Positions 23,313 through 49,996 of a stretch of 64,000 nucleotides of DNA are shown piece after piece; the first letter of the stretch is position 1; each line of letters begins with the position of its first letter. Below the pieces are notes generated by a model, which saw nothing but the letters and a program-made list of their open reading frames with translations, had not been told where the DNA came from and made no database searches. The DNA is from Zingiber officinale (Eukaryota > Streptophyta > Magnoliopsida > Zingiberales > Zingiberaceae). The stretch spans positions 11,604,894 to 11,668,893 of the forward strand of contig NC_056002.1 in the NCBI RefSeq assembly GCF_018446385.1, read 5' to 3'. A program made the translations under genes and the position numbers.

Positions 23313-25022
23313 TGTTGGTGCAATTTTCAATAGGTCAAGGTTGACCTAATTGACCAAGCGTAAACCTTGGTCATGGTTTCGATGTTTGACAATACAGAAA
23401 GACATGTAGACATGGACAATGCAGGTGCAGTTGTCCATGCGGAGATATACTGATCAGGGTCTGATCAGGTTGGATGAAGAAGAGTCAAGTAGGTCAAGGT
23501 TGACCGGATACTTGACTGGGAAGTCCTAACTGGGATGTTAGGCAGTTCGAAAAGTCCTGGTGAGTGAAGCCAGGCAGTTCGGAAAGTCCTGGTGAGTGAA
23601 GCCAGGCAGTCGGAAAATCCTGGTGAGTAAAGCCATGTGAAAATCCTAGTGAGTGAAGCTAGGTGAAAGTGAAAGTCCTGGTGAGTGAAGCCAGGCAGGG
23701 GAAAGACCTAGTGAGTGAAGCTAGGCAGTTTGGAAGTCCTGGTGAGTGAAGCTAGGCAGATGGAAAGTCCTGGTGAGTGAAGCCAGGCAGTTGGAAAGTC
23801 CCGGTGAGTGAAGCCAGGCAAGGGAAATCCAGATAGGTCAAGGTTGACCAGACATCTGGTGAAAAGTCCAAGCAGGGAGCTTGGCACGAGAAAAGTCCAA
23901 GTATGGAGACTTGGCACGGAAAAGTCCAAGCAGGGAGCTTGGCACGGGAGAAGTCCAAGTATAGAAGCTTGGCATGGGAAGTCAGAGAGAGCTCGGTAGC
24001 TCGGTAGCTCGGTAGCTCATAGCTCGGCAGCTCGCTCTCCGGACTAGGTCAGAGAGGGCTCGGTAGCTCGTTCTCTGGACCGGATGGAGTCGGAGAGGGC
24101 TCGGTAGCTCGGTAGCTCGGTATCCCGGTAGCTCGGTAGCTCGGTAGCTCGTAGCTCGGCAGCTCGGCAGCTCGCTCTCCGGACTAGGTCAGAGAGGGCT
24201 CGGTAGCTCGTTCTCTGGACCGGATGGAGTCGGAGAGGGCTCGGTAGCTCGTAGCTCGGTAGCTCATTCTCTGGACCGGACAAAGTCGGAGAGGGCTCGG
24301 CAGCTCGTTCTCCGGACTAGGTCAGAGAGGGCTCGGTAGCTCGGTAGCTCGGTAGCTCGGTAGCTCGGCTGATTGGTCCCCAAGACCGATCAGAACACTC
24401 CTGGACCTATCAGGAGTGTGCCTGATCGGTCCAGGCCCTAACCGTTGCGACACAACGGCTAGTTTATCTGTCTTCTTCTTCGTAGGTTATATATCAAGGT
24501 CGAGGGCCTCTACAGAAACACCTCTTCTTCCTACTAACTGCGACTTGAGCTTTGCTGAGCTCTCGGTTTGCTGAAGCTTCGCGTGAGCTTCGTGCTGGTT
24601 TTCTAGCTGCTGGAGCCGTGAAGCTGCTGCTTCATCAACGGACTCCGACGAGAAGGCAAGCAAGTGTGTTTACAATTTCTATTGTTCTTGTTTGTTTCCT
24701 CTATTGTTGTACTCCTCTGTTTTGCTGTTGCAAAGACTTTGTGGTGAGATTTCTCCACCCAGAAGGAGTTCATATTAGCCGGTTATCCGGGGTCTCATCC
24801 ACCGACGGATTGATAGGCTTCGTCCACCTTACGGACACGCCGAGGAGTAGGAGTATCATCTCCGAACCTCGTTACATCCATCGAGTTTGAGGTTTACCTT
24901 CTTACTTTTCGTTTCTACGGTTTCATTTCCGCTGCGCTAACCCTAATCGTAGGAAGAAACGCGAAGGATTTGGGGCGGCTATTCACACCCCCCCTCTCTA
25001 GCCGCGACCATCGATCCTAACA
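23313..25022 (+). repeat. 5' LTR of the gag-only element
   Basis: 1710 bp, from TGTTGGTGCAA to CGATCCTAACA. Parts in order: the LTR start; a tandem array of AAGTCCTGGTGAGTGAAGCC-type units (about 23526-23830); CCAAGC..GCTTGG units (23866-23975); an array of nine-base CGGTAGCT units (about 23990-24370); GATCGGTC palindromes (24370-24435); and a TATA-like TTATATATC (24487-24495). The end carries the GGGGCGGCTATTCACACCCC block. Confidence 0.92.
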
Positions 25023-25024
25023 AG

Positions 25025-25040
25025 TGGTATCAGAGCCAGG
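25025..25040 (+). other. Primer-binding site (initiator Met-tRNA type)
   Basis: TGGTATCAGAGCCAGG lies two bases after the 5' LTR. It is the standard plant copia primer-binding site, complementary to the 3' end of initiator methionine tRNA. Confidence 0.92.
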
Positions 25041-25084
25041 TTGCTCTTCGTCGGATTAACACCCGGGGAAGCACAAGCTAGAGA

Positions 25085-26548
25085 ATGGATCGACTCGGAG
25101 AAGACATCATGATTCCATCCTTCTACGAGTGCTGTGACTTCGCGTATTGGAAGGTAAGAATGAAGTATTTTCTTATGACTAACCTAGCAAATTGGAATTG
25201 TATACAAGTAGGTTTTATTCCTTCGGTGGATAGAAAGGGAGAACTTCTCAAGAAAAAGAAGTGGACGAAAGAACAAATCCACCAATCCACAATCAACGAC
25301 GAGGTAACGAAAATCCTTGAATTTTCATTACCTAGTGATATCTTGTGTAAGATAGGTAGATACAACAATGCCAAGGAGTTGTGGAACAACTTGGTTAAGT
25401 TCCATGAGGAGAGCTCCAATTCAAGTCATGAAGAGGAATCAAGTGAGCCAAGTAGCTCACATCATGGAGGTAAGAAATTAGAAGTTGAGGGCTACTCAAC
25501 ATCTATGGAAGAAGAGGAGGAGAGTTCTTCTTCAAGATTGGTGCAAGAAGAAGCTTCTACCTCCGGAAGGGATGAAGAAGAGAGATTACATCCATCCTCA
25601 ACCCTAGGTAACTCAAGCGATTTAATTTCAAGTAAATTACATATAATGTGCTTTGAGTGTAGGGAATATGGGCATTACAAGAGTAAATGTCCAAAGAGGT
25701 TTAGGAAGACTCCACTGGCACCAAAGGTCAAGGAAGCCGGAGTCCCGAAACGCAAGGGCAAGGAGCACGTGGTGTGCTTCCAATGCAAGCGAAGGGGACA
25801 TTATAGAAGTCAATGTCCGAGGGGGAGGCAACCTCACAAGGACAAGAGACCAAGCACATCTATAGGGGGAGCTAAGGCAAACCCTAAGGTATCCTTTAAG
25901 GCACATTCTTGCAATACTAGTAAGATGCATGCTAGTAGTTTGATTGCAATTGACAATAATGATAAGCATGATAATTATAGAAATCGATACACATGCTTAG
26001 GTGCCAAACATGTGAGCCCAGATAAGGATAACACTAGGAAAGCCAACCCTAGGATCAACTCGTCTAAGGTTAAGGGAAACCTAGATAGGAATCCCAAAAC
26101 TACTAGACATATGTCTAGGAGTACCTCAAAGAAAAATGATAAATTAAAGCTTGAGGTATTAGAGAAAGAAAATCAAGTCTTGAGGTCAAGACTTGACTCT
26201 CTAGAAAAGGCTCTTGAGGATTTGACTCTAGGGTCTAGGGGTCAAAAATCCAAGTCCAAGGACAAGAAAAGTTTGGGTCACAAACCTAAGTCCCAAGTGG
26301 TCAAGCCCACTTATCGCAATGTTCCATTCGATTATGGAACAAAATCTAGAGCTAGGAAGACCATCACCAAGGTCACAAGGGGAGTCACCCCTAGAGTTGA
26401 TCTTGATGAGTCCCAAATGACCAAGGTTTCAAAGCCTAGGAGGGTCATTAGGAGGGTTGCTAGGGAAGTCATCCCTAGTGAATATTTAGTGAACCCAATG
26501 AGCTCCAATATGTATTGGGTTCCTAAGAGCGTGATTCCATCACGCTAG
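25085..26548 (+). CDS. Gag-like protein of the non-autonomous element (487 aa)
   Basis: An uninterrupted 487-codon frame beginning 62 bp after the LTR. The N-terminal part (YWKVRMKYFLMTN, then LCKIGRYNNAKELWNNL) is the usual copia gag fold. Two CX2CX4HX4C zinc knuckles follow (CFECREYGHYKSKC at residue 189 and CFQCKRRGHYRSQC at residue 231), separated by a basic linker. A leucine-rich coiled coil (KLKLEVLEKENQVLRSRLDS) lies near residue 360. The C-terminus NMYWVPKSVIPSR resembles NLYWVPKSCLV at the end of the gag at 62301-63758. Gag binds the RNA and forms the particle. No pol domain follows in the remaining 1.8 kb. Confidence 0.85.
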   Translation: MDRLGEDIMIPSFYECCDFAYWKVRMKYFLMTNLANWNCIQVGFIPSVDRKGELLKKKKWTKEQIHQSTINDEVTKILEFSLPSDILCKIGRYNNAKELWNNLVKFHEESSNSSHEEESSEPSSSHHGGKKLEVEGYSTSMEEEEESSSSRLVQEEASTSGRDEEERLHPSSTLGNSSDLISSKLHIMCFECREYGHYKSKCPKRFRKTPLAPKVKEAGVPKRKGKEHVVCFQCKRRGHYRSQCPRGRQPHKDKRPSTSIGGAKANPKVSFKAHSCNTSKMHASSLIAIDNNDKHDNYRNRYTCLGAKHVSPDKDNTRKANPRINSSKVKGNLDRNPKTTRHMSRSTSKKNDKLKLEVLEKENQVLRSRLDSLEKALEDLTLGSRGQKSKSKDKKSLGHKPKSQVVKPTYRNVPFDYGTKSRARKTITKVTRGVTPRVDLDESQMTKVSKPRRVIRRVAREVIPSEYLVNPMSSNMYWVPKSVIPSR

Positions 26549-28376
26549 ATGGTTTAGGGTGTGCCAACCTTACTTGAATAGGTAATTAACCTAATCATGG
26601 CAAAAGGTGGCACTTTAGGATTTTTCAAGGTGTGATCAAGCCTTGAAAATGAAATGAAAAATTATTCCTAAGATAATTAGGATGTGCCAACCACATTTGA
26701 GGAATTTTCTAGAGTCAATGTAGTTGGCACATAGTGATCTAAAAGTCTTGAGGATATGATTTTAGGTCTATTACACTTAGGAATATAGAATTTATGGCAA
26801 AATGATCAAAATTATCAAAAATGGCAACTAAGGCTAGAATTAGGTATTTTCTATACCTTTATGTGCTATCTGCCATATATTGTTTGCCATATGTCATGTC
26901 ATGACATCATATTTATTTTATGATCATTTAAAATGTCATGATAATGCTTAGGTTATTTATATGTCATGCTTTATTTAAGTTTCATACTTTATGCCATGAC
27001 ATCATGACATTGTCACATGTTATTATGTATGATATCATTTTATGCCATGTCATCATTTCTTGCATTTATAATCAATGAAATTGATTTAAGGTTAAAAACA
27101 CAAATTTGATATGGAGATCAAATTGATGTTTAGAAAATGCATGAGACCTTAGTCTAAGATAACCTAAACTCATATCTCACATCAAAATTGACTTGGATGT
27201 ATTTGATACACCTTAGATGTGTGTGAGATATTAGGATGATGAGTTAGGAACAAGGTGCATAGTTCTTGTACCTAGATGAGCCTAATTCAAAATTGGGGAT
27301 CATAGGGAAAGCTTATGTACAAGTCATGTACATTTAGCCCTAAGATTATGATCCTAAATTGAAGGTTTTAAAATTATTTCAAAATTGATTTGAAAAACCT
27401 TGATGAAGCTTTTCTAATGATAGCATTCATCATTGAACAAGGTGATACAAAGATGAGTTAACTTTGAGCTATTTCAAAGACTTGTGAACTTTGTATCAAG
27501 ATTGAAAAATGGAAGCTATTTTCATAGAAAACTATTTTTCCTTGATAGTATATGTTATGAGGAATGTATCCTCAAAGTTTTATAATTTCTGGAATTTTCT
27601 GAAATTTTGTAGGGGTTTCTGAATTTTGGAAGGAAATTCAGAAACTGATATCAGAGGTTGTGGACCAATCAGAAGGGAGTCTGATCGGTCCAGGCAGTTG
27701 TGGATCGGTCACTGTGAGCGATCCAGGGAAGACCTGATCGGTCTGGTGACCGATCAGGGCGTGCCAGTTTCGACTATGCTGTCTGAAATTTCAGCAATGA
27801 AGTTGGAGTTTTGGATTTCTAAAGGGTTGAAACTCTCCAAGACATTGTTGGTGCAATGATCAAGGGGGAGTTGACCTTTAGGGGGAGTTTTACCTATTGG
27901 TCAAGGGGAGTTGACCTTTTGGGGGAGTTGTCATGAGTGATATGGGATTATCACTAAATTGACTATTGACATTAGTATCAAGGGGGAAATTAAGGGTTTC
28001 AATGAAAGGTATGGGACTTTCATTAGGAAGAAACTCTTGACCTTGATTCACTCTTTTTGATGTGTGTCAAAAAGGGGGAGAATGGAGAATGTCTAGAGAA
28101 TGTTCAAGGAAGAACATTGGAGTTAGTGGGAAGAGTTTGTTGATCACAACGAGTGAAGTTGTGAACAACGGTAACTTACTCTTCAGGGGGAGAGTTTGTT
28201 GATGTGTGCCAATAGGGGGAGAATGAAGGGTTTAAGTTAGGCCTTCATTATCTAAGAAGGAGGTTGTCTTCTTAGAAGGAGAATGTAAGGTTGTAACTTA
28301 TGTTTTATTACCTAGTGGCATGAAGAAAGTTGAGGCTATTGGATTAGCCTAACTTAAAGGTATTGTCAAACATCAA
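26549..28376 (+). other. Non-coding interior of the gag-only element
   Basis: No domain of pol. Around 26850-27060 the text is rich in ATGTCATG-like words. At 27660-27770 GATCGGTC palindromes appear that are shared with the LTR. From 27861 to 28386 there are about nine polypurine-tract-like runs (AAGGGGGAG or AGGGGGAG). Confidence 0.6.
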
Positions 28377-28388
28377 AAAGGGGGAGAT
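28376..28388 (+). other. Polypurine tract of the gag-only element
   Basis: An AAAAAGGGGGAGAT run sits immediately before the 3' LTR start at 28389. It primes plus-strand DNA synthesis in LTR elements. Confidence 0.85.
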
Positions 28389-30173
28389 TGTTGGTGCAAT
28401 TTTCAGTAGGTCAAGGTTGACCTAGTTGACCAAGCGTAAACCTTGGTCATGGTTTCGATGTTTGACAATACAGAAAGACATGTAGACATGGACAATGCAG
28501 GTGCAGTTGTCCATGCGGAGATATACTGATCAGGGTCTGATCAGGTTGGATGAAGAAGAGTCAAGTAGGTCAAGGTTGACCGGATACTTGACTGGGATGT
28601 TAGGCAGTTCGGAAAGTCCTGGTAAGTGAAACCAGGCAGTTCGGAAAGTCCTGGTGAGTGAAGCTAGGCAGTTCGGAAAGTCCTGGTGAGTGAAACCAGG
28701 CAGTTCGGAAAGTCCTGGTGAGTGAAGCCAGGCAGTTCGGAAAGTCCTGGTGAGTGAAGCCAGGCAGTCCGAAAATCCTGGTGAGTAAAGGCAGGTGAAA
28801 ATCCTAGTGAGTGAAGCTAGGTGAAAGTGAAAGTCCTAGTGAGTGAAGCCAGGCAGGGGGAAAGACCTAGTGAGTGAAGCTAGGCAGTTTGGAAGTCCTG
28901 GTGAGTGAAGCTAGGCAGATGGAAAGTCCTGGTGAGTGAAGCCAGGCAGTTGGAAAGTCCCGGTGAGTGAAGCCAGGCAAGGGAAATCCAGATAGGTCAA
29001 GGTTGACCAGACATCTGGTGAAAAGTCCAAGCAGGGAGCTTGGCACGAGAAAAGTCCAAGTATGGAGACTTGGCACGGAAAAGTCCAAGCAGGGAGCTTG
29101 GCACGGGAGAAGTCCAAGTATGGAAGCTTGGCATGGGAAGTCAAAGAGAGCTCAGTAGCTCGGTAGCTCGTAGCTCGGCAGCTCGCTCTCCGGACTAGGT
29201 CAGAGAGGGCTCGGTAGCTCGTTCTCTGGACCGGATGGAGTCGGAGAGGGCTCGGCAGCTCGGTAGCTCGGTATCCCGGTAGCTCGGTAGCTTGGTAGCT
29301 CGGTAGCTCGTAGCTCGGTAGCTCGGCAGCTCGCTCTCCGGACTAGGTCAGAGAGGGCTTGGTAGCTCGTTCTCTGGACCGGATGGAGTCGGAGAGGGCT
29401 CGGTAGCTCGTAGCTTGGTAGCTCATTCTCTGGACCGGACAAAGTCGGAGAGGGCTCGGCAGCTCGTTCTCCGGACTAGGTCAGAGAGGGCTCGGTAGCT
29501 CGGTAGCTCGGTAGCTCGGCTGATCGGTCCCCAAGACCGATCAGAACACTCCTAGACCGATCAGGAGTGTGCCTGATCGGTCCAGGCCCTAGCCGTTGCG
29601 ACACAACGGCTAGTTTATCTGTCTTCTTCTTCGCAGGTTATATATCAAGGTCGAGGGCCTCTACAGAAACACCTCTTCTTCCTACTAACTGCGACTTGAG
29701 CTTTGCTGAGCTCTCGGTTTGCTGAAGCTTCGCGTGAGCTTCGTGCTGGTTTTCTAGCTGCTGGAGCCGTGAAGCTGCTGCTTCATCAACGGACTCCGAC
29801 GAGAAGGCAAGCAAGTGTGTTTACAATTTCTATTGTTCTTGTTTGTTTCCTCTATTGTTGTACTCCTCTGTTTTGCTGTTGCAAAGACTTTGTGGTGAGG
29901 TTTCTCCACCCAGAAGGAGTTCATATTAGCCGGTTATCCGGGGTCTCATCCACCGACGGATTGATAGGCTTCGTCCACCTTACGGACACGCCGAGGAGTA
30001 GGAGTATAATCTCCGAACCTCGTTACATCCATCGAGTTTGAGGTTTACCTTCTTCCTTTTCGTTTCTACGGTTTCATTTCCGCTGCGCTAACCCTAATCG
30101 TAGGAAGAAACGCGAAGGATTTGGGGCGGCTATTCACACCCCCCCTCTCTAGCCGCGACCATCGATCCTAACA
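28389..30173 (+). repeat. 3' LTR of the gag-only element
   Basis: 1785 bp and nearly identical to 23313-25022 apart from repeat-number changes in the hairpin array and the CGGTAGCT array. The 75-bp length difference comes from these arrays, as expected of tandem repeats. The end CGATCCTAACA meets the flank GTTTT. Confidence 0.92.
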
Positions 30174-34038: not shown

Positions 34039-36457
34039 CGTTGGTTGCTACTCAGAAAACCTAGAGGTTCCACTGTACAAAAATTTTGTACAAAGGTCTG
34101 AACCTTTTCCTAGCTATCATGTGTTCTTTTAAATTAAATTTTGGATCGCCTGCGGAACTTAACACGTTTGATCCAAAACTTAATCTATTTGTTCTTTTAG
34201 GTTTTGACTTGGATCTCCTGCAAAACTTAACACGTTCGACCCAAACCACCTTAAGTTATTAATTCCATTAAATATTAATTTCCATAATTGGTTCCCAGTA
34301 CTGACGTGGCGAGGCACATGGCCTTCTTGGATATGGGAGCGACCACCACCGACTAGACAAAACCTTTTATGGAAAGCTAATATTTAATTTCCTAAAATAA
34401 CTTTAGGTTAACCGAAAAGAACAATCAAATCACAAGGAAAAATAAAACAAAAGAACACAACATCGAAAAACATATTCGAAATACTAGAATCGTAAGCCTC
34501 TTGTATTTGGTATTATTTCCATAAATAACTAGTATGATGCGGAAAGGAAAAATTACTAGTTATACCTTCTAGAAAGACCTCTTGATCTTCTACCGTTTTC
34601 CTCTTCTAACCTCGGATGTTGTGTGGGCAACGATCTTCCGAGATGAGAAACCACCAATCACCTTCTTCTCCTCCTAGCTAGGTTCGGCCACAACAAGGAA
34701 GCTTTACCAAGGATGAAGAACAAAACACCAACCAAGCTCCAAGAGATGCAAGCTTTCTCTCCTTCTTCTTCTTCTTCTTCTCCAAGTAGTATCCGGCCAC
34801 CACAAGAGCTCCAAGGGAGATGAGGGATTTGGCCACCACAAGAGGAAGAGAGAGAGAGAGGATGATGGCCGGCCACAACACCAAGGAAAAGAGGGAGAGA
34901 AATAATAGAGGTTCTCTCTCATGAAGGCACCCCCTCCCCTTCTTTTATATTCCTTGGCCTTGGTAAATTAGGAAATTTAATTACAATAAAATTTTCTTAA
35001 TTTCCTTGACATGATTTAATTGAGAAAAATAAAATAAAATTTCGCAATTAAACTATAATGACCGGCCACGTCATGGAGGAATAAATTAGACAAGTTTTAA
35101 TCAACAAATTAAACTTCCTAATTTGTTTCCGGAAATTTTAAAAATAAAATTTCTTTTCAAAAATCTCTTCATGGTTGATAAAAAGAAATTTCTATAATTT
35201 TAATTTTTCAACATGTGAATAATTTTTAAAGAGAAAATAAAATATCTCACCAATCTACAAATAAGGAAAGAGATCTAATCTCTTTCTTTAATCTTTTGTA
35301 GATCATTTACAAGAGAGATATTTTAATTTTAATTCTCTTTAATAAATTATATCTTCCACATAATAAAAATTAAAATTAAAATTCTTTTTTTTTAATTTAA
35401 TATGGCCGGCCCCTTCTAGCTTGGGTTCAAGCTAGGGCCGGCCACCTTAAACCATGCTTAGGCCGACCCTAGCTTGATTCCAAGCTAGCTTGGTCGGCCC
35501 CCTTTAGGTGGGTATAGAAGGTGGGTATAGGTGGGTATAGTACTCTATAAATAAGAGGCTACGATAGGGACCGAGAGGAGGAATTGGTTTTGGTCTCCCG
35601 ATAAAATTAAGCATCTCGTGTTCGCCCCGAACACACAACTTAATTTTATCAATAATAATTCATTCCACTAGAGAACTATTATTGAACTACCGCACCAATC
35701 CCAAATTACATTTTTGGGCTCCTTCTTATTATTAGTGTGTTAGTCTCCCTGTGTTTAAGATATCGAATGTCCACTAATTAAGTGAGTTACTGACAACTCA
35801 TTTAATTAATATCTTAGTCCAAGAATAGTACCACTCAACCTTATCGTCATGTCGGACTAAGTCCACCTGCAGGGTTTAACATGACAATCCTTATGAGCTC
35901 CTCTTTAGGACATTATCAACCTAGTATCTCTAGGACACAGTTTCCTTCTATAATCAACAACACACACTATAAGTGATATCATTTCCCAACTTATCGGGCT
36001 TATCGATTCATCGAACTAAATCTCACCCATTGATAAATTAAAGAAATAAATATCAAATATATGTGCTTGTTATTATATTAGGATTAAGAGCACACACTTC
36101 CATAATAACTGAGGTCTTTGTTCCTTTATAAAGTCAGTATAAAAGAAACGACCTCAAATGATCCTACTCAATACACTCTAAGTGTACTAGTGTAATTATA
36201 CAGTCAAGATAAACTGATACCTAATTACACTACGACCTTCTAATGGTTTGTTCCTTTCCATTTTGGTCGTGAGCTACTGTTTATAATTTATAAGGTACTG
36301 ATAACATCATCTTCTGCATGTGACACCACATACTATATTATCTACAATATAAATTAATTGAACAACTACAATCAAATGTAGATAATTTGACCAAATGTGA
36401 TTCTTTATTCAAAATAAATATTTACAAAAGCTTAGGCTTTCAGTATACACTCCAACA
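34039..36457 (+). mobile_element. Solo LTR nested in an LTR of its own family
   Basis: A 2419-bp unit beginning CGTTGG and ending CCAACA, flanked by a perfect GGTAT duplication (34034-34038 and 36458-36462). It is similar to the host LTR over its whole length (for example CCACTGTACAAAAATTTTGT at the start and GCATCTCGTGTTCGCCCCGA in the second half). A strong hairpin (35418-35493) lies about 55 bp before a TATA box (TATAAATA, 35546-35553). It landed about 10 bp upstream of the equivalent, now decayed, TATA position of the host LTR. Confidence 0.88.
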
Positions 36458-37259
36458 GGTATAGTACTCTATCATTAAGAGACTACGATAGGGACCGAGA
36501 GGAGGAATTGATTTTGGTCTCCCGATGAAATTAAGCATCCCGTGTTCGCCCCGAACACATAACTTAATTTCATCAATAATAATTCATTCTACTAAAGAAC
36601 TATTATTGAACTACCGCACCAATCCCAAATTACATTTTGGGCTCCTTCTTATTATGAGTGTGTTAGTCTCCCTGTATTTAAGATATCGAATGTCCACTAA
36701 TTAAGTGAGTTACTGACAACTCATTTAATTAATATCTTAGTCCAAGAGTAGTACCCCTCAACCTTATCGTCATGTCGGACTAAGTCCACCTGCAGGGTTT
36801 AACATGACAATCCTTATGAGCTCCTCTTGGGGACATTATCAACCTAGATTACTAGGACACAGTTTCCTTCTATAATCAACAAGTCACACTATAAGTAACA
36901 CCATTTCCCAACATATCGAGCATTTTGATTTATCGAGCTAAATCTCACCCTTTGATAAGTCAAAAAAATAAATGCTAAATATATGTGCTTGTTATTATAT
37001 TAGGATTAAGAGCACACACTTCCATAATAACTAAGGTCTAGTTCTTTTATTAAGTCAGTATAAAAAGAACTTACCTAAAATGGTCCTGCTCAATACACTT
37101 AGAGTGTACTAGTGTAATCTATTAGTCAAGATAAACTAATACCTAATTACATTATAACTATTCCAATGGTTTGTTCCTTTCCATTTTAGTAGTGAGCTAC
37201 TGTTTATAATTTATAAAGAACCGATAACACGATCTTCTATGTGTGACACCACACACTAT

Positions 37260-38372
37260 TGTTGGATCGTAAAACATCGATAGAGGGGGGGGTGAATATC
37301 GAGTTGAAAAATAACGAGTATAAACGCAGCGGAATAAGAAAATTGAACACAGTGGATTTACTTCGTTCGGAGCCTGTGACGACTCCTACTCGAAGGCCCG
37401 TACTCCGTGAGTACTTTCGTTGGGCAATTCACTAGCAATTCGAAATATAGATTACAAGTTAAGTACAATATTGCTAATAAGGAAAAATTACCGATAATAA
37501 AAAGACTTAGAACAGAAAGGAAAAGCTTGTCGGAGATCGCAGCGCAGCAGGAGCACAAGGAAGCAGATTCTTCGTTCTGAGAGTTGTGTCCTTGAAGCTT
37601 GCTCACCCCCTCCTTTTATAGCCCTTTGGAGGGGTCTCCAGAGCTTATCAGATCCCAAAAATTCGGATCAGATGAGGAGAGTTCGAATCTGGCTGATCTG
37701 AGTCGTCTCCAACTACTTGTTTGACACAGTCATCTTCCAAAGGTCATAACTTTTGACTCCGAACTCGGAATCAAGCTTTGTCAGTTGCTACGCGTGCAGA
37801 ATTTGAAGCTCTACATTTGTATCTACAAAATAGAGTTAGAAAAATATATGTATAGACATGTTATATAGATTTATGAGTTAGGTCTTGTCTTTCCGAGACC
37901 AGAACCTAGTCAGGGTCTCAATTTAGAGATCCAAAATGGACCTAAACTGGACCGACGCCTATTGTCCCTTAACTGGGATGCGTCCTCACAGTCACTCTCC
38001 TCCAGAGACTTACCTTTACTTACCTGCCAGACGTTCGGTCAGCCCTTCGACCCATCTGGACTTTGTGCCAACTATCCGGTCAGCCCGTCGACCTAGCTGG
38101 ACTTCATGCCAAGCGTCCGGTCAGCCCGTCGAAACGCTTGGACTTCGTGTCATCTATCTAGTCAGTCCGTCGACCTAGCTGGACTTCTCGCCAAGCGTCT
38201 GATCAGCCCGTCGACCCGCTTGGACTTCGTGCCAGACATCCGGTCAGCCCGTCGACCTGTCTGGACTTAGCCTGCATACTCGATCAAAGCATTAGATAAC
38301 GACAAACCTAACTTAACATATTTGTCATTCATCAAAACCTGGGTTAAATCGCTAGTGCTAACCGCACCAACA
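37260..38372 (-). mobile_element. Solo LTR (copia-type) nested in the long solo LTR
   Basis: 1113 bp with ends TGTTGG and CCAACA, flanked by a perfect ACTAT duplication (37255-37259 and 38373-38377). Read on the minus strand it begins TGTTGGTGCGGTTAGCAC, almost the same as the copia LTR at 39856, and carries the same hairpin array (38020-38270) with its own arm sequences. A TATA-like TATAAAAGG (minus strand) lies near 37615. Confidence 0.9.
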
Positions 38373-39104
38373 ACTATGTTATCTACAATATGAATTAATT
38401 GAACATCTACATTTGGTATGAATGTAGACACTTGACCAATGTAATTTCTAAATAAATGTTTATACAAAAGCTAGGTTTTTAGTATATACTCCAACAAAAC
38501 CTTATTTCAAAAGAAAGCGTGTAACATCCAAAGTTGTCATTAATCGAGTGTGATATGCAACCTCCATTCCACGCCCCTGTGCTTGTAGCAAATGTGACAC
38601 ACTTTGTCGTTGATTTTGAAAAGCCTCAAGTTGTGTTCTTGCATCATTGTGAGCACTAGCTACACCACCAACATGCGTATTAAATACTTCCATTGCTTTT
38701 CTCCAATTAGTCATCCCTAAATTAGTAAATGCCTCATCTCTAACTCGACATCCTCTATGAGAATTTTTAAAGAGATAAAATCAAAACAAAAAGTTGCATC
38801 TTTTGATATGCAGTGCTCTAACCATGAAAATTTGTTAAACCAAGCAACTTGGAAACTTTTATGCTTTTTACCAAATTATATTTGGGGATAACTATGACCA
38901 AATGGTTGGCAAGGTCCTCTAATCAAATATTATCTTTGAATATAATCTCTAATAGAAACATCAAATTTATTAATTGGGTTGCGTAGCCTTGGGTCACTAA
39001 CAACATCATTCGGGTTGAATTCAATGCGAGGATATTTTTTTTTTACTGTTTTCTTCCATATAATTCTCAGAAGACTCAATACTTCGTTTTAAAATTTTCT
39101 CCAT

Positions 39105-39855
39105 AACTTATGTCAATTCATCAAAATTATTGATTTATGCAATCAACATAACAATTAAAGTACTACCAAGTATAAATCATGAAATTAGGAATTAGATGAA
39201 ATAAGGAACAAGATTCACCTAAAATTGAAGGGATTTTACTTGTAGTGGAGAATCGTCGGCGGAGCACAGTGGTAGCGGTGTCAACCGAATAGGCGAATCG
39301 CAAACAGTAGTGGCGTCACTGGCGTGAGGCGTCGATGAAGTGAAGAGGCGCAAAGATGAGGGCAACGGTTTGAGGAGATCGGAGAGGGGGAAACAATGAG
39401 ATCTCTTAGCGCGATTAGGGTTTTTTGTTTGAAGAAGAAAGGGTGGCTTAGAAAAAGAAGGTTCAGCTACTGGAAAAAGCTTTTGGAAAAAGGATTGAGA
39501 ACGAGAAAGAAAAGGAAAGCTATTGGAAAAAGGATCGGGAATGAGAAAGAAAAGGAAAGGTGTTTTTAATGACACTTTTGAGAAATGGTCCAATAAGTTT
39601 AAAAAGGAGACCAGCTTATCGACAGTAGTTGCTATAAGTAGGGGTGATCATGGATCGGGTTGGTTCAGTTATTGGGATAAAGAATTATCCGACCCTACTA
39701 GATCAGATAATGCAATATCAGAACCCTACATCCAGTCCTATATCCAGCGATTTTTTTTTAGTTCAATTTGGGTCAGTATGAGCTGGTTTGTCTGTTTAGA
39801 GGGTTGACTGCTCAACCCTGTAGATCTTAATGAACAACTAGAATTAATTATATAT
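39105..39855. other. hAT 5' flank and repeat block, no gene
   Basis: Upstream of the hAT start. It contains a tandem duplication of about 48 bp around GCT(T)TTGGAAAAAGGATxG (39477-39560). A 16-base direct repeat of 21732-21747 lies at 39612-39627. At 39637 begins a second copy of the block seen at 21424. The copia element at 39856 cuts this block. Confidence 0.5.
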
Positions 39856-40822
39856 TGTTGGTGCAGTTAGCACTAACAGTGTAACTCAGATTTTGATGAA
39901 TGACAAAGTAGGTTAAGTTAGTTTCGTTGTGATCTAATACTTTGACTAAGTGTGTCGGAGAAGTCCAGCTAGGTCAACGGGTCGACCGGATAGCTGGCAC
40001 GAAGCCCAGCTAGGTCGACGGGCCGACCGGATAGCTGGCACGAAGCCCAGCTAGGTCGACGGGACGACCGAATAGCTGGTATGAAGTTCAGACAGGTCGA
40101 CGGGCTGACCGGATGTCTGGCAAGTAAGTTAAGGTAAGTCACCGGAGGGGAGTGACTTGGTGAGGACGCATTCCCAGTTTAAGGGAACAGTAGGCGACGA
40201 TCCAACTTAAAATCATTTCGGGAATCTAAGTTGAGATCGTGACTAGATTCCAATCTCGGTGAGACGGAGTCTAATTACTACTCTATAATTATGCTAACAC
40301 TTTATTTTGCAGGGTAGTATAAATTTCATTTGCCTCGGACTAACATTTTCTTGCAAAAAATTGAGTTGCTGGAAAATGGTGGTCCAGGCGCCCGGACTCC
40401 GGGCGCTCGGAAGGGATCCGGGCGCCCGAAGCTTCCTATATAAGGAGGCCACCACCTGAGCAAAAGACAACAACTTTTGCTACGATTGGCCTCATGTGCG
40501 ATGCTTTCAAGATGCTTTTGCTACGCTACGAAGCTTCTCCGATAACCAACAATTTAGTCTTTACTCTCTTGTTGTCGATAATTTAATTTTGCAAATTCCT
40601 ATACTCATTTTGTAAATATCTTTTCGAATTATTAGTGATTGCTCAACGAAAGCACTCAATGAGTACAAGCCTTGGAGTAGGAGTCGACGAAGGCTCCAAA
40701 TCAAGTAAAATTAGTTTGTGTTAGCATTGTATCTTTCGTATTTCCACCGTGTACTCCACTCGATTTAATTATGAATTTTTTGAACGCTATTCACCCCCCT
40801 CTAGCATTTTCATGATCCAACA
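39856..40822 (+). repeat. 5' LTR of the copia element
   Basis: 967 bp, TGTTGGTGCAG to GATCCAACA. Four hairpin units at 39965-40120, then GGCGCCCGG-type palindromes (40385-40430) directly before a TATA box (CTATATAAGG, 40436-40445). Confidence 0.92.
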
Positions 40823-40824
40823 AG

Positions 40825-40838
40825 TGGTATCGGAGCAG
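40825..40838 (+). other. Primer-binding site of the copia element
   Basis: TGGTATCGGAGCAG two bases after the LTR, the initiator Met-tRNA type with one difference from the usual form. Confidence 0.85.
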
Positions 40839-41147
40839 GTACCACTCTGATTTGGTGCAACCACCAATCAAACAAAAGGGGTGAAATGCTTTTTTATTTT
40901 TTTCCGACTTTAAGTTTTTTGATACAAACTAAACTGATATCGTTACCTTTTTGGAATTATTTTTTTTAGTAAATTAAACTGAATTGGTGCAACACCAATT
41001 CAGTCTTAAATTTCCTTTTTCTCCCGCACTGCTAATCCAAGACCAAGTCTTGAGATTTTTTTATTGTTTCCTTATGTGCAAGATCAATGTCTCAAATCGA
41101 AGGTTTCAGCACAGTTCGTCCTCTTCTGTTCAATGGTGACGACTTCC

Positions 41148-42494
41148 TGATAGATCGATTAAGTGCGATAGAGGGGGGGGGGGTGAATATCGCGCTCTTT
41201 TAAAAACTTTTCTTTTTATATTTCAAAACAATTCGAGTAAGCAGCGGAAAATATAAAGAGATAATAAGTTCATTTACTTCGTTCGGAGCCTAGCTCGACT
41301 CCTACTCGAAGGCTCGCAATCCTTGACTGCACCAATGAGCAATCCACTAAGATTCTTCTTCCCGAAAATCTCGGAAAGAAGTAATGCGTATAAAATATAA
41401 TAATATAAGATAGTAACAAGCATACTATCTTATATGAGTTTAAGTGCAATACAAAAGTAAAGTATACCGACAGTATGTGAAAGTTGAAGCTCGATCGGCA
41501 CTTGCTTGCGTGTAGAAGAGTTGTAGAGCAGTAGCACAAACAATAGCAGCTAGCACAGAGATTGACTTCGAACTTGAATAGTGTTTTTTAGCCCTGGACC
41601 TTGAGCTCTCTTTTATAAGAATCGTCGACGTTCGGTCGACCGATCCCTGGGTTCGGTCGACCGAACCCGCTCCATTCCTTCTGTGCTGAGATTCGCTGAG
41701 ATCTGATCTTCAAGCATTAACTGATCTTTAATGGTTCGGTCGACCGATAACCTTGTTCGGTCGACCGAACGATGGACTTTCCTTCTCGTCAAGATTCGCA
41801 CTTAATGCTCCATTAATGCTTTTACTATTCAGTCGACCAAACCTCATTTTCGGTCGACCGATCATGCTGTGATACCATATTTGCGAGCCTGATCTGTTTT
41901 GCCATTTTTGCTTGTTCGGTAGACTGATAAAATGTCTTTTTTGATCGACCGAACCTCCTGTTCAGTTGACCGAACCCTTGGTCAAATGAAGCTTTCTAAG
42001 TGCTAGTCGCATGCCCGCTGACAGAGCCTGATTCTGAGTTCTGAGTCAATAGTTATGACTATTTGAAGTTCAAAGGGTCATATATATGATTCTGCAACAC
42101 AAAGTTAGTTCGATATAATAATAATATTCCTGCAAAACAAAGTTAGCACAGTTATAATACATGAGTAGTAATATGCATGAGTATAACAATTAGGACTGTC
42201 TTGATCTCAACTTGGAAACCTTCCCGGTTTCTTCAGTTGTATCAGCGACCTTAGGTTGTTCCCTTCAGGAACCCGACCTCACTGTCGCTCCTCCAGTTAT
42301 TTACCTCAACCTACCTGCCAAACGTTGGGTCCTCCAGACCTGTTTGGACTTTACTGTCTGGTCGTGACTAGGACTTTCTCGATTGAGTAAATAGCCTGCA
42401 CACTTAACTAAATCATCAGATCATAACAAGACTTAAATTGAACCTTTGACAACATCAAAACTCAGGTTTGATTCTGGTGCACCTTACACCAACA
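41148..42494 (-). mobile_element. Solo LTR (copia-type) inside the copia gag, with a TTCGGTCGACCGAA array
   Basis: 1347 bp flanked by a perfect CTTCC duplication (41143-41147 and 42495-42499); ends TGATAG and CCAACA. It is in minus orientation relative to its family. At 41630-41980 it holds about eight copies of the palindrome TTCGGTCGACCGAA or close variants, next to a TATA-like TTATAAAAG (minus strand, about 41610-41618). A CCAAAC..GTTTGG hairpin lies near 42318-42350. No coding sequence. Confidence 0.9.
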
Positions 42495-47825: not shown

Positions 47826-48869
47826 CTTACTTTTAAAATTATTTTCAAAATTTCCTTTAAAATTTTAGGGTAAAACTTTTTATTTTCCAAACTTCCCTAT
47901 TTTTTAGATTTTTAAATTAATTCTAGCCTTAGTCTAGATCAAACCCTTAGAAAGCATGCTCCTATAGGTCTAGAACTTGACAAGCATCTCACCAACACAC
48001 TAGGACTACCTTATTTGTGAAAGGGGTGAGATGTATAGGCAGATTGTCTGGACTTAAGATGTTTATATTTGTGCATTAACATAAGTCTAGGCGTTAAATA
48101 CTAAACTAATATTAATCATGTTAAGTTATTCAGCTCAATCAAACACCAACTGAATACATTAACTTAACCTGACTAACCAAGTGAAAGCTGCTATCTTTTG
48201 GTAGTTAGTAAATAACTAATGGTTAGATAGCTATGTTACTTTAAAAGTAATGTAAGGTTCAGGGGGAGAATTATTATTGAAAATATTTTGCAAAACTTTA
48301 TTTCAAAAATTATTAAAATGAAAAAAATAGCTTCAAAAATTATTAAAAACTTTAAGATTTCAAAATCTTACTTAAAGTTTTACCATTCGATTTTTGAAAA
48401 CCTCTCTTATATTTTTTTTTAAAATAATAATAATAAAATAAATAATAATAATAATAATAAAATCATTTTTAAAGTATCCCTTGTTTTCAAAATCCACCCT
48501 TATCATCTTATTTTTGAAAGCCTTATATTTTTAACAAGATATTTTTGAAATTATCCCTTTTTTTTAAATTCAATTTTTGAAAGTGTTTTTCAAATGATTT
48601 GAAAAATGTTTTAAAGGTTTTCAAAATTCACTTTCATTTTTTTATATACTTTTAATTGTCTAACTCTTTCTAACATTTTTAAATTTTATATTCTTTGAAA
48701 AGATAGTACATTTTGTAAATTATGGAAACTATTTTTTACAAAAACTTTATTTGAATTCTTGAAAATTAAACTTTCCCATTAATCCTTACAAATTTTCTGT
48801 TAAACTTTTTCTCTTTCCTTTACTTAGCCATTTTTCTTAAACCTATTTATGCTTGTTTTTTTTTTTTTA

Positions 48870-49018
48870 TGAATATCAAAGGGGGAGGGTTAGATGGATT
48901 AAGTTAGGTGAAACATCAAACATCAAACATCAAAATAACACTAACTTAAACCATATCCTATTTATTCATATTTTCACTAACTTAACTCAGGTTGTCATTG
49001 CATCAAAAAGGGGAAAAT
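48870..49018 (+). other. 3' untranslated region and polypurine tract of the copia element
   Basis: Purine runs AAAGGGGGAGGG at about 48879 and AAAAAGGGGAAAA just before 49019. The latter directly borders the 3' LTR. Confidence 0.65.
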
Positions 49019-49996
49019 TGTTGGTGCAGTTAGCACAAAACGGTCTAACTTATGTTTTGATGAATGACAAAGTAGGTTAAGTTAGTTTCGTTGTGATCTA
49101 ACACTTTGATTGAGTGTGCAGGAGAAGTCCAGCTAGGTCGACGGGCCGACCGGATAGCTGACACGAAGCCCAACTAGGTCGACGGGCCGATCGGATAGCT
49201 GACACGAAGTTCAGACAGGTCGATGGGTTGATCGAATGTCTGACACGAAGTCTAGCTAGGTCGACGGGCTGACCTAATCGCTGACACAAAGTCTAGACAA
49301 GTTGACGGGCTGACTGAATGTCTAGCAGATAAGTTAAGGTAAGTTACTGGAGGGGAGTGACTTGGTGAAGACGCGTTCCCAGTTTGAGGGAATAGTAGGC
49401 ATCGATCCAACTTAAAACTATTTCGGGAATCTAAGTTGAGATCGTGACTAGATTCCAGTTTCGGTGAGACAGAATCTAATTACTACTTTATAATTGTGCT
49501 AACACTTTGTTTTGCAGGGTACTATAAATTTCATTTGCCTCGGATTAACATTTTCTTATAAAAAATTGAGTTGCTGGAAAATAGTGGTCCAAGTGCCCGG
49601 ACTCTAGGCGCCTGGAAGGGATCCGGGCGCTCAGAGCTTCCTATATAAGGAGGCCACCACCTGGAGCAAAGGACAACAACTTCTGCTACGATTGCTCTCG
49701 TGCGTGCTGCTTCCAAGAGGCTCTTGCTACGCTGTGAAACTTCTCCGACAACCAACAATTTAGTCTTTACTCTCTTGTTGTCGGTAATTTAATTTTGCAA
49801 ATTTCTGTACTCATTTTGTAAACATCTTTTCGAATTATTAGTGATTGTCCAACGAAAGCACTCAACGAGTACGAGCCTTGGAGTAGGAGTCGACGAAGGC
49901 TCCGAACCAAATAAAATTGGTTTGCATTAGCATTGTATCTTTCGTATTTTCACTGTGTACTCCACTCGATTTAATTATGAATTTCACAATCCAACA
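49019..49996 (+). repeat. 3' LTR of the copia element
   Basis: 978 bp, TGTTGGTGCAG to ATCCAACA. It has five hairpin units (about 49128-49324) where the 5' copy has four, so array copy number has changed since insertion. TATA CTATATAAGG near 49641. Confidence 0.92.

Follow-up and report, generated by a model that had tools for sequence, protein, structure and literature searches.

Tandem hairpin units in the LTRs of a ginger retrotransposon raise the question whether arms that differ from unit to unit, and still pair, mark a structure under constraint or only reflect the way in which these repeats were copied. The units lie in a 64,000-nt stretch of the Zingiber officinale genome (contig NC_056002.1, hereafter the window) and belong to a copia element that we call element A. 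Its LTRs are organized as follows.

39856..40822, + strand: 5' LTR of element A, TG...CA, 967 nt, junctions read from the sequence
39965..39997, + strand: hairpin unit 1 of the 5' LTR, arms CCAGCTA/TAGCTGG, 7/7 paired
40006..40038, + strand: hairpin unit 2 of the 5' LTR, arms CCAGCTA/TAGCTGG, 7/7 paired
40047..40079, + strand: hairpin unit 3 of the 5' LTR, arms CCAGCTA/TAGCTGG, 7/7 paired
40088..40120, + strand: hairpin unit 4 of the 5' LTR, arms TCAGACA/TGTCTGG, 6/7 paired
40388..40432, + strand: promoter-side CCGG palindromes, RM-like boxes seen by eye, apart from the hairpin units
40437..40443, + strand: putative TATA-like box, TATATAA
49019..49996, + strand: 3' LTR of element A, identical to the 5' LTR at 844 of 958 aligned bases
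49129..49325, + strand: five hairpin units of the 3' LTR, 33 nt each, starting at 49129, 49170, 49211, 49252 and 49293

A preliminary description of this locus had reported four units in the 5' LTR, with AGCTA opposite TAGCT in units 1 to 3 and AGACA opposite TGTCT in unit 4, and all of them are present at 39965-40120. Five units had been assigned to the 3' LTR; each was located, three are paired 6/7 or 7/7, and units 2 (CCAACTA/TAGCTGA, 5/7) and 4 (CTAGCTA/TCGCTGA, 4/7) are decayed. The period is 41 nt in both arrays. The 5' LTR units occupy about 110-265 nt from the LTR start, apart from the promoter-side boxes, and since they lie upstream of the TATA-like box they are presumably part of U3. 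TATAT precedes the 5' LTR and follows the 3' LTR, a likely target-site duplication. Differences between the two LTRs at 114 of 958 aligned bases mark the insertion as old. Because one LTR carries four units and the other five, in a different arm order, the array has probably changed after insertion. It is not better kept than the LTR as a whole (134/157 versus 844/958).

Hairpin units are also found in other LTRs of the window.

38027..38264, - strand: six hairpin units of a minus-strand LTR (5' end at 38372), several arm types including AGACA/TGTCT and AAGCG/CGCTT
42318..42347, - strand: single hairpin unit of another LTR family, CCAAACA-GGTC-TGGAG-GACC-CAA-CGTTTGG, one A-C mismatch
41631..41861, strand not assigned: five TTCGGTCGACCGA boxes, the core of a published Sirevirus RM box (PMC2829016)
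23313 to about 29500: element B, 3' LTR starting at 28389
23485..23515, + strand: hairpin unit of an element B LTR, TCAAGTA-GGTCAAGGTTGACC-GGA-TACTTGA
23829..23859, + strand: hairpin unit of an element B LTR, CCAGATA-GGTCAAGGTTGACC-AGA-CATCTGG
27863..28386, + strand: six copies of the AGGGGGAG polypurine motif in element B, with AT/TG, a Sirevirus hallmark, after the last one at 28379

The arm types previously read in the minus-strand LTR at 38 kb (AGACA/TGTCT, AAGCG/CGCTT) and near 42.3 kb (CAAAC/GTTTG, in full CCAAACA/CGTTTGG) were confirmed. Positions 36079-36457 match 37001-37259 and 38365-38496, the sequences on either side of the minus-strand LTR at about 37.3-38.4 kb, and lack the LTR itself; this nearby copy looks like an empty site, which fits insertion of a solo LTR. 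The TTCGGTCGACCGA boxes look like the RM boxes of the literature and are distinct from the hairpin units; they probably belong to the same LTR as the 42.3-kb unit. LTRs of element B (23540-24368 and 28602-29519) hold further tandem simple hairpins, CCTGG..CCAGG and CCAAGC..GCTTGG, which lack the GGTC/GACC core and are followed by AGCTCGGT arrays. This element has one zinc-knuckle ORF (25082-26545), and by eye alone none of four other stop-to-stop ORFs of at least 90 aa in 24400-28600 is pol-like; element B looks non-autonomous.

Judged by the hallmarks given in PMC2829016, the elements hosting the units appear to belong to the Sirevirus lineage. Polypurine copies are multiple in element A too (AGGGGGAG at 48261 and 48880, the terminal one degraded), and the terminal tract is followed by the AT/TG junction in both elements (28387-28390 in B, 49017-49020 in A). 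The Sirevirus primer site consists of CA, ATTGG or AGTGG, and then TATCAGAGC; in element A, where this site was checked, the LTR end at 40822 reads CA AGTGG TATCGGAGC, one base off. By eye, an inverted repeat (gtcaaacatc/gatgtttgac) surrounds the polypurine/3' LTR junction of element B near 28379, and poly-C lies near the LTR end of element A at 40794. The coding region of element A is broken; among its ORFs searched, the integrase core alone passed the cut-off (rve, E 2.7e-8). With these hallmarks in the host elements, the units are one variant of the palindromic repeats already known from Sirevirus LTRs.

All genome pattern searches covered the plant's own genome (3.09 Gb, 211 contigs), and they show that the covarying bulged hairpin module is real and larger in scale than previously described. 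From 5' to 3', a unit consists of a 7-nt arm, GGTC, a loop of 3-9 nt, GACC, a 3-nt bulge (usually GGA) and the complementary 7-nt arm. With arms left free, the main form has 43,253 exact matches and its reversed control none; the pattern thus exceeds chance. A form with the GGTCAAGGTTGACC core and the same architecture has 33,930 exact matches versus 0 for its control, a free-loop pattern 60,090 versus 13, and a free-spacing pattern whose loops begin with C or T 5,809 versus 119; these four counts overlap in part, and one locus may score once per haplotype if the assembly is the haplotype-resolved one described in PMC8342452 (3.09 Gb, 22 pseudochromosomes). The core GGTCGACGGGCCGACC of the preliminary description is one variant, with 1,874 exact matches.

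For closer analysis, 168 loci were taken together with the window; 21 were removed as overlaps, one of them the window's own LTR, and 148 sources remained. Main-core units with at most 4 mismatches were present in 128 of these, giving 601 units in 134 arrays, and 20 fetched loci belong to a different family. The sample is non-random, as it was drawn from the start of contig 1, the best matches to two window LTRs and sites with a rare first arm base. The core GGTCGACGGGCTGACCGGA occurs exactly in 207 of the 601 units, 426 of 467 neighbour distances are exactly 41 nt, and 108 of the 134 arrays contain 4-6 units. Many arrays are near-identical copies, and 20 of 95 contiguous arrays share one unit order.

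Four arm types dominate the main family: AGCTA/TAGCT, AAGCG/CGCTT, AGACA/TGTCT and AGACG/CGTCT. Leaving out 106 of the 601 units, in which an arm could not be typed, the two arms agree in type across 19 nt in 478 of 495. The arms of one unit, at a distance of 19 nt, share 1.60 of 1.80 bits of mutual information; for arms of adjacent units that face each other across only 8 nt, the value is 0.26 of 1.46 bits (355 pairs). Strong association within the unit and weak association between neighbours, despite the shorter distance, argue against simple linkage. The proposal that arms change together is thus borne out strongly and beyond linkage alone.

Covariation is confined to part of the hairpin. 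When the columns of 505 unique 49-mers were compared, with correction for background, three arm pairs came near the top of the 1,176 column pairs (ranks 1, 5 and 6) and a fourth came at rank 18; the remaining eight predicted pairs lie at ranks 103-568, so that covariation in the main family concerns four base pairs only. The core GGTC/GACC, the outer CC/GG and the first A-T pair show no covariation in this family. Pairs that are fixed cannot covary; such changes as do occur in them look independent, which is what dead copies should show. The first arm base is other than A in 165 genome units, compared with 43,253 units in all; among the matches listed, 98 of 100 such units keep the T partner and one has G-C, which agrees with independent variation at non-covarying pairs. 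Old copies thus vary in a way that looks independent, and on this point the original claim is not supported.

We wondered if mismatched combinations of arm types are found as well. Chimeric AGCTA/CGCTT units number 167 in the genome, versus 11,476 units with an AAGCG 5' arm, and by eye 92 of 100 AAGCG units among the matches listed keep CGCTT. The two LTRs of one element should show up as arrays on the same strand, 3-15 kb from each other; among the 100 matches listed of each kind, such a partner was seen for 8 of 98 chimeric arrays and 37 of 70 AAGCG arrays, a rough comparison in that the two listings span different distances and seek different partners (chimeric versus any AAGCG). Few partners suggest that chimeras mostly arose after insertion and were seldom transmitted. 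Shared arms are less frequent between neighbouring units than after shuffling of the unit order (54 versus 71.5 in all arrays, fraction 0.14; 29 versus 33.8 in distinct orders, 0.10; 16 versus 21.0 in distinct mixed orders, 0.08); this is not significant, and avoidance of like neighbours to prevent cross-pairing is not claimed.

Other arms and loops are found in the same architecture. Examination of 597 dyads of the form GGTC-N3..10-GACC in the fetched loci showed that 496 of them pair at least 5/7 in the expected register. These 496 units contain 82 different loops, and their bulge is mostly GGA (313), AGA (62), TGA (47) or GAA (41). Perfectly paired 7-nt arms fall into 20 types, 13 of which occur in at least two loci and 7 in one locus only. 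Among 448 dyads pairing at least 6/7 in any register tried, 428 have a left gap of 0 nt and a right gap of 3 nt; the strand of each dyad was the one scoring better in the expected register, a choice that favours this register over its mirror image and not over other gaps, and many loci had been fetched with patterns fixing the register for at least one unit. In fetched LTRs of the element B type, as many as five bulged hairpins follow one another, and four or five different arm pairs occur among them.

Among the matches listed for the free-spacing pattern, 53 rows are distinct; 26 of them fit best with a gap of 3 nt, 11 with 0, 3 with 1 and 2 with 2, and 11 show no arm match of at least 4/5. 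By eye, zero-gap rows are mostly symmetric boxes, CTGATCGGTC..GACCGATCAG, RM-like. Zero-bulge boxes CCTGATCGGTC-N..-GACCGATC recur as well, e.g. at C1:1641006 and C1:2538725, and seem to form a separate symmetric class.

Complementarity outside the main family was compared with 10,000 shuffles, using distinct rows that fit the 8-nt spacing and leaving aside non-fitting free-spacing rows and GGTCAAGGTTGACC-core rows. Fitting rows among the matches listed for the free-loop and free-spacing patterns yield 34 distinct arm pairs with a mean of 3.85/5 complementary positions, where the best shuffle mean is 3.09; nine pairs are perfect, versus 7 in the best shuffle. When main-family pairs seen at least three times are added, matched or not, the 59 pairs reach a mean of 3.98 (best shuffle 2.97), with 14 perfect pairs (best shuffle 9).

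Units 1-4 of the 5' LTR are predicted to fold as drawn (z -3.65, -3.68, -4.64 and -1.82), with about 12 pairs in each single unit. In the 3' LTR, the drawn fold is predicted for units 1 and 5 and shifted forms of it for 3 and 4, whereas unit 2 does not fold in this way. The 186-nt 5' array is more stable than its shuffles both as RNA (z -2.48) and as DNA (z -3.82). Its best RNA fold is a nested cross-unit pairing of units 1-3, not a string of local hairpins; these units nest into each other because their arms are alike. G-U exceeds A-C among mismatches of unique units (279 versus 226, p 0.02). The ratio is 219:182 (p 0.07) in better-paired units, where one column carries the excess and another opposes it, and 29:24 (p 0.58) in distinct arm pairs with one mismatch. 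The excess, which we considered as proof of RNA, is weak and uneven and gives no clear sense-RNA signature. The structured element put forward in the preliminary description is upheld in part, by an architecture that recurs with other arms, loops and LTR families, and RNA and DNA substrates are not separated by this weak preference for G-U over A-C. The one-sided bulge argues for a fold of a single strand over a double-stranded dyad site.

How could such arrays arise and persist? We consider it fairly probable that the units, placed in the 5' part of U3, serve Sirevirus-lineage LTRs as a structural signal, and that its fold is selected while lineages transpose. Architecture, covariation between arm types and recurrence across LTR families are observed; selection, substrate and ligand we infer. 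The single-stranded unit would fold into a lower helix made of the variable arms, a 3-nt bulge on the 3' side, an upper GGTC/GACC helix and a variable loop. The constant part, i.e. GGTC/GACC with the bulge, is probably what a protein recognises, and the arms would serve as a scaffold, free to change provided that they pair. Selection would act on the fold as long as the lineage transposes, and inserted copies would decay afterwards. As substrate, either the 3'-terminal U3 of genomic RNA or single-stranded cDNA would be most likely, and Gag or a host protein might bind the hairpin there. We count in favour of a selected structure the agreement of arms, the recurring architecture, the rarity of chimeras and their apparent lack of transmission, units that fold as drawn and, weakly, the G-U excess of unique units. 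Against it we count covariation limited to four pairs, the fading of this excess in better-paired units and in distinct arm pairs, the nested array fold, the lack of extra conservation of the array and the rows with gaps other than 3 nt.

Four other explanations, not mutually exclusive, were weighed. The GGTC/GACC dyad might be a double-stranded transcription-factor site upstream of the promoter, with arm pairing secondary, as proposed for RM boxes. Position upstream of the TATA-like box agrees with this, and GGTCAA..TTGACC holds what we take to be two facing W-box cores. Palindromes with proposed regulatory roles are moreover a published pattern of Sirevirus LTRs (PMC2829016). We nevertheless regard a cis-regulatory site as unlikely to account for the units, as a sequence-reading factor would need neither 20 different, still complementary arm sequences nor a second dyad axis shifted by a one-sided 3-nt gap. 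Founder effect, where a few early unit types spread whole by duplication and transposition so that pairing is inherited and not maintained, would explain why the main family consists mostly of four arm types, why many arrays are near-identical (the shared order of 20 in 95) and why old-copy variation looks independent; it does not fit well with facing neighbour arms that are weakly linked although nearer, nor with the same architecture bearing other arms and loops in other LTR families, and we give it a low probability.

One arm might also be rewritten from the other without selection, by template switching during reverse transcription or replication. Such a mechanism is described for RNA hairpins (PMC8794818), and arm types indeed differ in multi-base blocks (AGCTA, AAGCG, AGACA). 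Inverted loops are one footprint that it predicts, and core-loop inversion was not encountered in the 601 units: the reversed linker lies upstream in 0 of them, the forward linker in 533 and neither in the rest. Since pairs beyond the four variable ones bear no sign of copying and the constant bulge is left unexplained, templated copying seems doubtful as the source of the pattern. Least probable of all is a role of the arrays as hairpin templates from which small RNA is made, a role proposed for the palindromes of maize Sireviruses. Palindromic LTR regions of maize Sireviruses are linked to small RNAs (PMC10760457) and the 186-nt array folds below its shuffles as RNA, but a single unit offers only about 12 pairs, and a template for host silencing would presumably give the element no reason for compensated arms and a constant bulge.

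Returning to the selected bulged hairpin, its function can be specified only tentatively. It is possible, with distinctly less confidence than for selection of the fold, that the units represent a general class of bulged protein-binding hairpins, in which the GGTC/GACC helix and 3-nt bulge are constant and the arms change freely but still pair, and act as a Sirevirus cis-acting signal in genomic RNA or cDNA, e.g. for packaging, export or strand transfer, being arrayed with different arms so that each folds alone. Sirevirus LTR palindromes may act as promoter boxes, silencing templates or structural signals; a constant bulge, taken with covariation, sets a structural role apart from one in which the sequence is read. 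As a single genome holds the unit in tens of thousands of copies, the evolution of the arms is open to statistics, and so is the choice between template switching and selection.

Among known systems, the closest are the Sirevirus RM boxes, described by Bousios et al. (2010, PMC2829016) as palindromic repeats of high copy number that form clusters in the LTR upstream of the TATA box; several of the boxes include GGTC/GACC, e.g. CGGTCTGACCG and CGGTCGACCG. Hairpin units likewise form a repeated palindromic LTR cluster upstream of a TATA-like box (40437 in element A). They differ from RM boxes in that the CGG-CCG dyad is absent, the main unit being (A/G)GGTC...GACCGG without the outer C-G pair; in that the dyad is not symmetric, given the one-sided 3-nt gap of nearly all well-paired dyads (428/448); and in their variable covarying arms, 41-nt period in the main family and placement apart from promoter-side boxes. 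In contrast, the promoter-side boxes of element A (40388-40432) do resemble RM boxes. LTR palindromes with strong predicted structure and rapid evolution were reportedly the subject of a later study by Bousios in 2016. Passages citing such rapidly evolving palindromes with predicted strong secondary structure (PMC10760457, PMC5311732) give CACCGGACNNNGTCCGGTG, which, compared by these passages alone, is a symmetric palindrome, unlike the bulged unit.

In the literature, a text search for GGTCAAGGTTGACC gave no match, and the 18 papers matching GGTCGACGGG were unrelated by title; covarying LTR hairpins were not found among the matches listed, which is not grounds to call the finding unpublished. 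Tnt1 and Tto1 are plant copia elements with tandem boxes in U3. Tandem repeats are thus common to the U3 of these elements and of the LTRs studied here, and the part of PMC3601003 that reports the repeats of Tnt1 does not mention covarying bulged hairpins. Retrozymes, plant non-autonomous LTR retrotransposons, have structured RNA with a hammerhead ribozyme (PMC4918200), whereas region 39850-40840 of element A, searched at E up to 1, has no match to any Rfam family. This sets the element A LTR apart from retrozymes. Retroviral TAR and CTE hairpins consist of a helix, a 3-nt bulge, a short upper helix and a small loop, the same succession as in the hairpin unit. The ginger units differ from them in having the bulge on the 3' strand, in lying in U3 and not in R, in being repeated in tandem and in that their ligand is putative.
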